Assembly (NCBI GenBank): GCA_026985435.1
Contig: JALSQL010000049.1
Location: 1-44,847 of the forward strand
Length of the DNA stretch: 44,847 nt
Source: Acidilobaceae archaeon
GTDB lineage: Archaea; Thermoproteota; Thermoprotei_A; Sulfolobales; Acidilobaceae
Reading direction: 5' to 3'
How positions within the stretch are numbered: the first letter of the stretch is position 1; each line of letters begins with the position of its first letter. The position numbers and the translations under genes are program-made. Shown in pieces: positions 17,095 to 21,634 of this stretch. The notes under the pieces were generated by a model. It worked only from the letters and a program-made list of their open reading frames with translations, did not search any database and was not told where the DNA came from.

Positions 17095-17949
17095 CTAGCT
17101 GCCGTCGGCCTTGCTGGAGGTGGCTGCCTCCTCTAGGGCTTTAAAGTATACTGGGGCGGCCTGCCTTGCTAGGGCTATCGCCCGGCGGGCCTCCTCCCTC
17201 GTGATGGCCCCCTCGCCGCTCTTCTGTAGGCCCACTATCCTGCCCCCATCGTCCAACGCGACCACGAGCCTCACGTCCGCCACGGACTCCTCCTCGAAGT
17301 CGGGGTCGACGGCTAGGTGCCTGCCTATCTTGGCCACGGTGACGGTGACTACCCTCCTCCTGATCGGCAGCGCCCCCAGGGGAGGCTTGCTCCTATCCAC
17401 CACCACCTCCCCGGTCTCTATCTCCTCATAGTACGGTATGCGAGCGTTGAGCAGCGCTGCCATCGCGGCCAGCATGGAGGCGTCGAAGAGGTTTCCACCG
17501 TGGTCTAGGATGTAGAGGTCAACCCAGACGACCCACACCTTCTCCCCGCTCCTGATGACGAGTTCGCCCAGGTCAACGGCCCCCACCTCCCTGAGGCTCC
17601 TGTCGACAACCCTGGCGAGCTCTATGGCGTTCTCGTCGGGCGGCCCCGGCTCGAAGAGGGGAGAGGCTAGAGGCACGAACTCGGCGTGAACAGTTAGCAC
17701 CCCCTGGTCGGGCGTGTCGCGGAAGGGCGCCCCAACGTCCATCTTCACGCCAGCCATAACCTGTGTGTTGCCAAGCTTCACGAGCGCCGAGCCCTCAGCC
17801 CTCTCGATCACGCCTAGCTCTACAGTCACACTCCTGGGCGTGGCTGGGTCCCGCTTCCCGTCTACCCGCAGGCCCTTAGCTATGAGCGCCTCGATCGCCT
17901 CCCTGCGCAGCTTGGCTATGACGGGTAGCCTGAAGGGTGTGACACTCAC
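17095..17949 (-). CDS. rrp42: Exosome subunit Rrp42
   Basis: [42 protein letters not shown]...RVVDRSLRE. Confidence 0.93.
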
Positions 17950-18674
17950 GCCCTACTCACCCCCTGGTACTTCCTCCTGAGAACCTCCTTCTCCTGCCTC
18001 ACGAGATCCTCTATGGCCCTCCACGCCATGTCGAGGGCCTGCTCGAACTCCTCCTCGCTCAACACGCCGTTGAGCTGCAGGAGCGTTATGAGGCCCAGGT
18101 CGGGCGCTCCGGCGACGGGTAGGTCTGCCTCGCCAGCGCTGTCCTCGACCTCGTCCACGTCCAGTACCAGCACGCCGTCCACCTTACCCACGGCCACACC
18201 CGCCACTAGGGCCCTCATGGGTATCCCGGCGTCTGCGAGGGCTAGCGACGCGGCTGTAACCCCCGCGGTCCTAGTGCCCCCGTCGGCTTGGAGTACCTCC
18301 ACGAACACGTCTATCGCCGTTCTCGGGTACAGCTCCGAGATGACGACAGGCTCCAGCGCCTCCCTGATGACTTTGGATAGCTCCACCTCCCTCCTACTGG
18401 GAGCCGGGCTCTTCCTGTCGCTCGTCGAGAACGGCGCCATGTGGTACCTGACCCGGAGTATCGCCCTGTCCGGTAGGAGCATGAACCTCTGGGGCGGCTC
18501 CCGGGGCCCGTAGACCGCGGCTAGTACCTTCGTCCGCCCGAACTCCACCATAGCCGAGCCATCGGCGTTCGAGAGCACTCCGACCTCCATCTTCACGGGG
18601 CGGTGCTCGTCGGGCCTTCTACCATCGTGGCGGAGGCCCTCCTCGCTTATGAGCCTCCCGTGGGCTGCCTTCAC
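17946..18674 (-). CDS. rrp41: Exosome subunit Rrp41 (catalytic RNase PH-like)
   Basis: [45 protein letters not shown]...[26 protein letters not shown]. Confidence 0.95.
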
Positions 18675-19387
18675 TTCCCTACACCCCTCACAACCTTCTC
18701 CTCCTCGATAAGCTTCCTTATCCTCGCCGTTAGGCCACTCGTGAAGGCCTCCCTCTCGATAGTTTTAATCGCTAGGATCACTATCGCCTCCACCTCCGGG
18801 TTCGGGCACTTAACGTGCACCCTACCGTTGACGGCGGCGAATATCTCGCACCCCGTCTCGCTTGAGAGCACCTCTAGCATGCTACCCTTCCTACCTATGA
18901 CCCTCGGTATCCTAGCCGGGGCTATCTCCACTATCTTCCCCTCAACAATCTTACCGAGGCCCTCCCCCTGAACGGTTAGGAGCGGGTTCCTGGTCCTATC
19001 GAAAGCTAGAACCTTGGCTTTAATGTCGTCTCCCGCCGAGAGGTACCTCCCAGGCTCGTCCGTCGCCGGGTTGAACGGCCTCCCGAGGAAGTCCTGCAGG
19101 TTGAGCACCGCCATGTAGGGCGAGTTTATGTCGACGAACCAGTTAGTCACGCCAACACTGTGCACCATCCCTATCACTATGTCGCCCGGCTTCGGTATGT
19201 AGATGCTCTCAAGCGGCACGAAGACCTTCTTGCCGCCCCTATCGTCGACGAAGCCCGGCACGGCAGCCCTCTTCACGCCTCTATCATCGACGTAGATGTA
19301 GGGCGCCCTGGCCTCCACGTCCTCGCCGACGGGGTCCCCGGGGAGGACTAGAGTCCTCGAGGAGCCCCCGCTAGACGTCTGGCCCAC
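18671..19387 (-). CDS. rrp4: Exosome RNA-binding subunit Rrp4 (S1/KH)
   Basis: [31 protein letters not shown] region [13 protein letters not shown]. Confidence 0.93.
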
Positions 19388-19389
19388 AG

Positions 19390-20106
19390 CTACTTCACCA
19401 CCCTAACGCTAACCTGCGCCTGGCCCCGGGTGAGCTTCTGGATCGTGTTAACCACGTCAACCTGTGCACCCGCCGGTATCTCCAGCTCCACGATCAGGGA
19501 GCCGTCGTGCCCCCAGTCGGCCTTCTTTACCTCGCCCAGGCGGGCCAGCTCCCTATATATCCTCCCAGAGAACTGTGGGGGTATGCGGGCGTGAACGACA
19601 GCCCTCGCCAGCTTTATCGGCATCACCCGCGCCAGCCTGCGGACTATCTCGACCGCCTGCGCCTCGGCAGGCTTGTATAGGTCCACGCCGATCCTAAGCT
19701 CCTCCATCGCGGCCTCTATCCTCGACTCCGGTATCGGCTTCCCAGTCTTCGGGTCCACAGCGTTCCTCGCTATGTACGCTATTATCTTCCTCTTCTTCGC
19801 CTCCAGCATCTTCCTCCTCTGCTCCTCGGTGAGCTGTATCTCGCCCTCCCTCAATATCCTCTCGGCGACCCGCCTGGGGTCGTCGGTCCCGAATGCCCTC
19901 CTCACCGCCTCCGGGCTGGCCTTCAGGCCCTTCCTAACGTCGCGGTATATAGTGTCGGTCCAGAGCACGTCGTCGAGGTCTACCTTCTCCCCCTCCTTGA
20001 ACTTGAAGGCGTGCTCCGGCCTGACCAGGATCTCGAACCTCTGCCCCCTGACCTCTAGCCATGCAACTACGTAATCGTGCCTGCGGCTCAAACCGCGCAC
20101 CCTCAC
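19390..20106 (-). CDS. sbds: SBDS/Sdo1 ribosome maturation protein
   Basis: RFEILVRPEHAFKFKEGEKVDLDDVLWTDTIYRDVRKG; C-terminal EF-G-like fold. Confidence 0.92.
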   Translation of the reverse strand: MRVRGLSRRHDYVVAWLEVRGQRFEILVRPEHAFKFKEGEKVDLDDVLWTDTIYRDVRKGLKASPEAVRRAFGTDDPRRVAERILREGEIQLTEEQRRKMLEAKKRKIIAYIARNAVDPKTGKPIPESRIEAAMEELRIGVDLYKPAEAQAVEIVRRLARVMPIKLARAVVHARIPPQFSGRIYRELARLGEVKKADWGHDGSLIVELEIPAGAQVDVVNTIQKLTRGQAQVSVRVVK

Positions 20107-20137
20107 CCGGGCGGGGGCGGGGCTGGAGGCATAAAAT

Positions 20138-20905
20138 CTAGCCCAGGCTGGGGGCTACCCTGTCTACTACCTCCTTAACCTCGTCTGGGCTGAGCTTCCG
20201 GAAGAGGGGCCTCTCGGCCTCTATCACCGCTATCTCCATGAGGTTCCCGGCCTCCTGTAGGACCTCCTCCTTCTTCTCTTTCGTCACTGCGAAGCGCGCC
20301 CTCAGTATCGCCTCGGCTACCAGGTCTAGGGCCTCCTCCAGATTCATGTCCCTCCTGTACTTCTTCTCGAAGACGCCCATCACCGCCTCCTCGCCCATCC
20401 CCACCGCCACGGCGTAGAATCCGAAGTACTGGCCGCCGGGCTCCGTCCTGAACAGCCTGGTCTTCCCGTCCTCAACGCCTCCTATTATTAGGGAGACCCC
20501 GAAGGGCCTCACTCCCCCATGCTGTGTGTAGGCCTGCTTCAGGTCAGCCACAGCCCTCACAATGTACTCTATTCCCGCGGCCTCGCCGTAGACCAGCCTG
20601 TGCCTTATGGCGGCGAGCCTTATGTAGTCTATGAGCACCCTGCCGTCGCCGCCTATGCCGGCGAACGTCGCACCTATGTGGTCGTCTATCTTGTATATCT
20701 TCTCCATCTCCTCGAGGTCTAGCAGCCTCGAGAACCTCCTCTTCTCAGCTGCGAGCACCACGAAGGAGTCCGTGCGGAGCCCTAGGCTGGTCCACCCCTG
20801 GCGGACGGCCTCGCTCGCGTAGAGCACCTGGTATAGCCTACCCTCGGGGGAGAACATCGTTATTGCCCTGTCATACGCCGCCGCCGTCGGCCCCGGGAAC
20901 GACAC
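20138..20905 (-). CDS. psmA: Proteasome alpha subunit
   Basis: AYDRAITMFSPEGRLYQVLYASEAVRQGWTSLGLRT. Confidence 0.96.
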   Translation of the reverse strand: MSFPGPTAAAYDRAITMFSPEGRLYQVLYASEAVRQGWTSLGLRTDSFVVLAAEKRRFSRLLDLEEMEKIYKIDDHIGATFAGIGGDGRVLIDYIRLAAIRHRLVYGEAAGIEYIVRAVADLKQAYTQHGGVRPFGVSLIIGGVEDGKTRLFRTEPGGQYFGFYAVAVGMGEEAVMGVFEKKYRRDMNLEEALDLVAEAILRARFAVTKEKKEEVLQEAGNLMEIAVIEAERPLFRKLSPDEVKEVVDRVAPSLG

Positions 20906-20943: not shown

Positions 20944-20952
20944 GGTTTATAT
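20944..20952 (+). promoter_or_regulatory. TATA element between psmA and the candidate sRNA; may fire in either direction
   Basis: GGTTTATAT (plus) / ATATAAACC (minus); about 30 nt upstream of the plus-strand hairpin RNA and about 40 nt upstream of the psmA start. Confidence 0.5.
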
Positions 20953-20980: not shown

Positions 20981-21045
20981 GGGTGCCGGTGAGGGGGAGA
21001 CCGACCACTGAGCGGTGACGTAATCTTCTCTCAGCCGAGGCACCC
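20981..21045 (+). ncRNA. Candidate box C/D-like sRNA with canonical K-turn and 7-bp terminal stem
   Basis: GGGTGCC-GGT-GA-GG...CC-GA-GGCACCC closes as stem + 3-nt bulge + tandem G.A pairs; internal CTGA (D') 21008-21011 and GGTGACG (C'); T-run after 21046. Confidence 0.5.
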
Positions 21046-21078
21046 GTTTTAGCCCCAGCAGGCCCCGCCCAGCACGGG

Positions 21079-21128
21079 GATGATGACGCCGTCCCAGATG
21101 GACCGGTGACCGTATCACGACGGACTGA
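21079..21128 (+). ncRNA. Candidate box C/D sRNA (50 nt)
   Basis: C box GATGATGA 21079-21086, C'-like GGTGACC, D box CTGA 21125-21128; flanking GGG/CCC terminal pairing; guides of about 12-13 nt. Confidence 0.55.
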
Positions 21129-21148
21129 CCCAGCGGGGGTGCAGCGGC

Positions 21149-21634
21149 TTGGCCCAGTGCACGCTCGCCATAACCCTGACTACGGCGGTCGCAGCCCTGG
21201 CCGGCGGGCTGGCGGGCTACTACGCCGCCAGCCGCTCCACGAGGGGCCTAAGGGCTGCCGTGAGGGCCCTCCTAGCTGGCGCCGCTAGGGAGCGCGACGT
21301 GGCCAGGGCCGCGAGGAGGCTCTCCTCGAGGCCCCGCAGGAGGTACCTCGTATTCGAGGTAATCCCCGGCGGCGTTGGGGAGAATGAGCTTAGGCGCTCG
21401 CTGGAGGAGGCCGCCAGGAGGCTGGCCGGGGAGGCGGGCCTGGCCCTCTCCGCTCTAACCCTCGTGGAGTACAGCGAGTCCACCTCGCGCGGCATCATAC
21501 GGTTCCGCCACGAGTACAAGGCGCTGGCCCTGGCCGTGCTTGGGCTCGTCAGGGAGGTCAACGGCTCCCGGGTGGTGCTGGTGCCCCTGGCGACTACGGG
21601 CAGCCTTCGGAGGGCTAGGAGGCTCCTCTCCTAG
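21149..21634 (+). CDS. rnp2: RNase P protein component 2 (Pop5) with hydrophobic N-terminal extension (TTG start)
   Basis: RRRYLVFEVIPGGVGENELRRSLEEAARRLAGEAGLALSALTLVEYSESTSRGIIRFRHEYKALALAVLGLVREVNGSRVVLVPLATTGSLRRAR. Confidence 0.75.
   Translation: MAQCTLAITLTTAVAALAGGLAGYYAASRSTRGLRAAVRALLAGAARERDVARAARRLSSRPRRRYLVFEVIPGGVGENELRRSLEEAARRLAGEAGLALSALTLVEYSESTSRGIIRFRHEYKALALAVLGLVREVNGSRVVLVPLATTGSLRRARRLLS

Follow-up and report, generated by a model that had tools for sequence, protein, structure and literature searches.

The region between psmA and pop5 in the window (the whole 44,847-base stretch of DNA that was analysed, from an uncultured thermophilic archaeon) contains two tandem genes on the + strand, here termed e1 and e2, which with a probability of about 95% encode archaeal box C/D guide RNAs that direct the methylation of four sites in 23S rRNA via L7Ae, Nop5 and fibrillarin. 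A box C/D-type assignment had been proposed in a sequence-only reading of the region, and the boxes, guides, k-turns, 23S register and core-protein genes all agree with it. Judged by the comparative evidence, both RNAs are functional, and they are well conserved and belong to a known RNA class and not a new type of system. The protein partners are encoded in the genome, where the genes for fibrillarin and Nop5 lie side by side and a gene for L7Ae is also found.

sRNA e1 occupies 20981-21045 (+) and measures 65 nt including its stem; the closing stem is 7 bp long and the k-turn is U4-like. sRNA e2 occupies 21076-21131 (+; 56 nt including its stem); its C and D boxes are canonical and its stem is GGG/CCC. 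Both lengths fall within the class range of about 50-70 nt. The gap is bounded by two protein-coding genes: the divergent psmA (20138-20905, -; Pfam PF00227, E 3e-53), which encodes the proteasome alpha subunit, and the downstream pop5 (21149-21634, +; Pfam PF01900, E 1e-15), which encodes an RNase P subunit. Upstream of e1, the TATA-like element noticed in the sequence-only reading, TTTATAT, is present at 20946-20952 (+) and is the probable promoter of the sRNA pair (and of pop5), although it could alternatively serve psmA on the opposite strand. Half of the e1 family (10 of 20 members, among them the window and its congeners) has a TTTA(T/A)A motif 38-45 nt upstream of the C box, a distance that fits a transcription start just ahead of e1, and the promoter-region stretch TTTATATCTCGTGG is kept in the congeners G001 and G002. 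The T-run said to follow e1 did not hold up: it is merely TTTT and is missing in congeners, where e2 nearly abuts e1, so that a terminator at this point is unlikely and was rejected. Since only about 20 nt separate the e1 D box from the e2 C box in congeners, a single precursor, likely reaching into pop5, is the simplest reading, and pop5 is probably co-transcribed with the pair.

On the minus strand, psmA is followed by genes for SBDS, an Rrp4-like protein and an RNase PH/Rrp41-like ORF (window 17946-20905). Together these genes make up the proteasome-exosome operon already described for archaea; the RNase PH/Rrp41-like ORF was named by eye. The Pop5 protein has an N-terminal extension of ~64 residues (encoded at 21149-21290), the Pfam Rpp14/Pop5 match beginning at residue 65. 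This extension contains a 19-residue hydrophobic stretch with a mean Kyte-Doolittle value of 1.77, and the start of Pop5 also appears membrane-helix-like in two relatives (L013 and L017); such a hydrophobic start could point to a membrane-anchored RNase P.

All of the motifs of the two structured elements described from the letters were recovered in their places. In e1, the closing stem is formed by GGGTGCC (20981-20987) and GGCACCC (21039-21045), and is followed by the 3-nt bulge GGT and then GAGG. The C box, GTGAGGG (20989-20995), was placed by alignment, the canonical RTGATGA being found in sister genera; it is followed by the D' guide (20995-21007), the D' box CTGA (21008-21011), the C' box GGTGACG (21014-21020, a motif also supported by the alignment), the D guide (21021-21034) and the D box CCGA (21035-21038). 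The stem of e2 is formed by GGG (21076-21078) and CCC (21129-21131), with the canonical C box ATGATGA at 21080-21086, so that its 5' end reads GGG-GATGATGA. Next come the D' guide (21087-21098), a degenerate D' box TGGA (21099-21102), the C' box GTGACC (21106-21111, within GGTGACC), the D guide (21112-21124) and the canonical D box CTGA (21125-21128); the GGG/CCC flanks and boxes of e2 had been described with a length of about 50 nt. All of these features lie on the + strand. The stem, 3-nt bulge and tandem G.A/A.G pairs of a k-turn can be written as GGGUGCC-GGU-GA/GA-GGCACCC in e1 and as GGG-GAU-GA/GA-CCC in e2. The C and D boxes of an archaeal box C/D sRNA are canonical in e2, whilst in e1 they take the form GUGAGGG/CCGA, a coupled change; each RNA has in addition an internal C'/D' pair, CTGA with GGTGACG in e1 and TGGA with GTGACC in e2. 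Other members of the e2 family have NNGA as the D' box, with CTGA in G005. The alternative of reading CAGA as the e2 D' box was rejected, as it yielded no consistent target.

Comparison with relatives, which the sequence-only reading had called for, showed boxes and guides to be conserved whilst the spacers drift. The gap DNA has matches in genomes both of its own genus and of its family, and alignments of 20 e1 copies and 11 e2 copies were read out from these matches. The following are invariant across the 20 copies of e1: GAGACCGACC at the core of the D' guide, CTCTC at the core of the D guide, TGA in the C box and GA in the D box. The length of the D'–C' spacer, by contrast, varies widely; in the 11 copies of e2, boxes and guides are conserved likewise, with a spacer that is less variable than in e1. 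HMMs built from homologues without any member of the window's genus matched only the e1 and e2 places in the 44,847-base window (E 1.6e-14 and 1.2e-14). With covariance and sequence models, e1-like matches were found in 44/199 genomes of the order and e2-like matches in 149/199, counts that include weaker matches not individually inspected. The elements are not confined to one place: e1 and e2 stand in tandem on a contig other than the psmA contig in G004, and e2 is located away from psmA–pop5 in G009, G011, G015 and G031, with the same guides carried by the e1 and e2 homologues found elsewhere. Homologues of e2 lie at most a few hundred bases from psmA in eight further genomes (G038, G042, G043, G045, G048, G052, G053 and G055), and those of e1 are likewise near psmA in G041, G053 and G054; judged from these positions, the linkage with psmA is old. 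In G073 (2,225,959 bp), which we take to be Sulfolobus acidocaldarius DSM 639, pop5 is followed by e2 and then by psmA, all on the same strand, and the pop5 stop codon TGA lies inside the e2 C box. Among C/D sRNA genes it is common for the C box to overlap a stop codon (PMC7994747).

The C and D boxes of e1 had been listed as degenerate in the sequence-only reading. They are indeed non-canonical (GTGAGGG/CCGA), but the change is a coupled exchange of U·U for G–C and thus appears compensated and not decayed. Sister genera pair GATGATGA with CTGA, and the window's genus and several others pair TGAGG with CCGA. Among the 20 sequences, base 5 of the C box and base 2 of the D box occur as U·U (8 sequences), G–C (9), C·C (2) and U·C (1), a coupling with a one-sided Fisher p of 7e-5 when phylogeny is ignored. 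These two bases form the k-turn position 3b·3n, at which archaeal box C/D k-turns have a strong preference for U·U (PMC5689011); a Watson-Crick pair at this position blocks ion-only folding of the k-turn and is typical of U4 snRNA (PMC4382518). Together with this published behaviour, the G–C pair favours reading e1 as a U4-like variant that depends on L7Ae, and not as a decayed C/D RNA; a simple pseudogene reading was rejected because the C and D box changes are coupled. Two further combinations, TGAAG/CGGA and TGAAG/CAGA, were seen in e1 homologues (L220 in G054 and L254 in G060), which makes 3b·3n unusually variable within the e1 family.

Compensatory changes in the stem, for which a search had also been suggested, were found for e1. 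In its closing stem 72.9% of cells are paired, with both-side changes at 7/7 pairs, and for the whole structure 72.8% of cells are paired against a shuffled mean of 61.8%, a level that none of 500 shuffles reached. The stem retains 64% of pairing when slid by +1, and its outer pairs are hence only loosely fixed in register. In folding, the e1 strand has a slight advantage over its shuffles (z -2.1). The folding of e2 is no better than that of shuffles (z +0.2), as expected because C/D sRNAs have little structure outside the k-turns.

Targets were assigned by the fibrillarin register, in which the methylated base faces the guide base five positions upstream of D or D'. A search for 16S and 23S rRNA in the window's own incomplete MAG found no rRNA, and the targets were consequently derived from the 23S rRNA of relatives. 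With guides of about 10-12 nt in the fifth-base register, two per RNA, four 23S sites were found (E. coli numbering). The D' guide of e1 is predicted to target C2606, forming 10 base pairs and one G·U with Aeropyrum-like 23S rRNA, and its D guide G2056 (9 base pairs); the D' guide of e2 is predicted to target G2251 in the P-loop (10 base pairs including one G·U) and its D guide U2593 (9 base pairs, with the window guide pairing to a contiguous 9 bases around this site). All four sites lie around the peptidyl-transferase centre, and the guides most likely direct methylation there. Dennis et al. 2015 predicted methylation of C2606 in all six of their thermophiles and of G2251 in three of the organisms (PMC4644070); by number, U2593 and G2056 do not appear in the main text of that paper. 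Shuffled guides matched equally well in 3-49 of 300 cases at the G015 locus and in up to 177 of 300 for G002, and the top match of the e1 D guide at the G015 and G002 loci is not the proposed site (in G015 it lies outside 23S). Complementarity of this order could therefore arise by chance and is not decisive by itself; the case for the targets rests on register, conservation and covariation.

Lineages with different targets usually have e1 guides that are changed accordingly, as read from paired guide and rRNA sequences. In G015 and G023 the 23S rRNA reads GGUCGGUCUC and the e1 D' guide GAGACCGACC, whilst in nine other genomes (G050, G051, G053, G060, G070, G078, G086, G092 and G136) the 23S rRNA reads GGUCGGACUC and the guide GAGUCCGA; base 8 of the guide is hence A facing U in the former and U facing A in the latter. 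At the second e1 site, GGGAGAG is combined with the guide CUCUCC in G015, G023 and G051, and GGGCGAG with CUCGCC in G060, G070, G078, G086 and G092, so that base 4 of the D guide is U facing A in the first group and G facing C in the second. G051 shares a family with the GGGCGAG genomes, yet pairs an A-type target with a U-type guide. Taken singly, these contrasts are small (Fisher p about 0.018 when phylogeny is disregarded). The exception is the congener G002, whose 23S rRNA reads GGACUC against a GAGACC guide, with A and not U opposite base 8 of the e1 D' guide. Its 23S gene is the only one within the genus, and is closest to that of G086, from another family (90.0%), with 87.5% to G015; the 23S contig may have been mis-binned, or the window's genus may tolerate one mismatch. 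The same gene (L130, on contig G002:C9) extends over 5,181 bases where the model has 2,987 positions, and its large insertions are probable introns.

Searches with Rfam at the gathering cut-off reported nothing over the window, and annotation pipelines would therefore miss both genes. In a permissive cmscan, proposed earlier in the form of a search with archaeal C/D models, sR47 and sR9 aligned at full length to 20985-21040 (e1), and sR7 and sR5 to 21076-21130 (e2), with 9.6-17.1 bits against gathering cut-offs of 36-40. The boxes of these families and of snoPyro_CD align over the whole length to e1, e2 or their homologues, but the scores lie below the cut-offs and the guides are different, and hence the targets are not the same. 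A closer relative was found in G050 (1,297,538 bp), which we take to be Ignicoccus hospitalis, where a match to the e1 model directs its D' guide to C2606 and its D guide to a base 73 nt upstream. In an RNA-Seq catalogue, Iho sR6 has D' and D targets at C2880 and C2807 in the authors' numbering (PMC4644070), a pair with the same 73-nt spacing; the match thus fits a catalogued RNA, and the e1 homologue is very probably expressed in I. hospitalis. The window e1 resembles sR6 in its D' guide to C2606, C-box position and layout, and differs in its D guide, which is directed to G2056, in its genomic place and in the D' guide sequence, GAGACC against UCUC-type targets where sR6 has GAGUCC. The e2 of S. 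acidocaldarius resembles that of the window in its guides, GCCG(C/T)(T/C)CCAG and CGCGAC/CACGAC, and in its position between pop5 and psmA, although all three genes there run in one direction, whereas in the window pop5 and e2 are divergent from psmA. A further comparison is with the k-turn in the 5' stem-loop of U4 snRNA. Both this and e1 have a k-turn core with a Watson-Crick 3b·3n pair that needs L7Ae/15.5K (PMC4382518), but U4 is a spliceosomal RNA and e1 a dual guide.

In the proposed mechanism, a single precursor driven by the TATA box at 20946 would contain e1, e2 and probably pop5. L7Ae would bind the k-turns, Nop5 and fibrillarin would then assemble, and each RNA, protected by its RNP, would be trimmed to about 55-65 nt. 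The RNPs would pair with pre-23S rRNA and 2'-O-methylate C2606 (e1 D'), G2056 (e1 D), G2251 (e2 D') and U2593 (e2 D), and at high temperature the modifications could stabilize the region of the peptidyl-transferase centre and the P site. It has been proposed that C/D sRNAs can act as rRNA chaperones (PMC4644070), and each of the two RNAs pairs with two segments of 23S rRNA that are far apart but come together when the peptidyl-transferase region is folded; a role mainly in bridging H80–H93 and the central loop–H93, and not in methylation, is nevertheless rather improbable, given that methylation agrees with the D/D' register and with the published predictions for C2606 and G2251. One role does not preclude the other.

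The position of e1 and e2 directly upstream of pop5, whose product acts with L7Ae in RNase P, raises the question of cis-acting k-turns, since L7Ae-responsive leader k-turns, including that of the L7Ae mRNA itself, are described for archaea (PMC5539422; PMC6298567). That the elements are such leader k-turns of pop5 (or psmA), regulating the gene and not acting as guides, is very unlikely: conservation is highest in the guides, which match 23S rRNA and covary with it, each element has two box pairs at guide-sized spacing, and the same RNAs lie away from pop5 in G004, G011, G015 and G031 and, over several genomes, on either strand relative to psmA. A combined role, in which the guide pair would also form the pop5 mRNA leader and L7Ae on the k-turns would couple ribosome modification to the supply of the RNase P subunit, is a long shot; if it were true, the long-lived placement of two peptidyl-transferase-centre guides between psmA and pop5 would itself be functional. 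The chance occurrence of motifs in GC-rich intergenic DNA, or the decay of former C/D sRNAs, would account for the non-canonical C and D boxes of e1, the D' box of e2 and the unremarkable folding of e2, but has a negligible probability in view of the conservation, the coupled box change, the outside-genus profiles (E 1e-14) and the contiguous pairing of the window e2 D guide around U2593.

Within an ordinary class of RNA, e1 and e2 stand out by their deep microsynteny and clear compensatory evolution. Archaeal C/D sRNAs have been described as fast-evolving, with guides reshuffled between species (PMC4644070; PMC7994747); by contrast, e1 and e2 have kept their guides and their neighbourhood in different families of a single order. 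Compensatory changes have arisen naturally both where a guide faces its rRNA target and where the C box faces the D box in one k-turn. Both kinds are directly testable, and the low scores of the archaeal Rfam models illustrate how annotation misses such genes. A tRNA search of the window found none. Members of another family of the order, however, have a tRNA gene near psmA together with e1 and e2 (L257 in G136, L219 in G053 and L209 in G043); in L257 and L219 it is located between e1 and e2, which stand on opposite strands.
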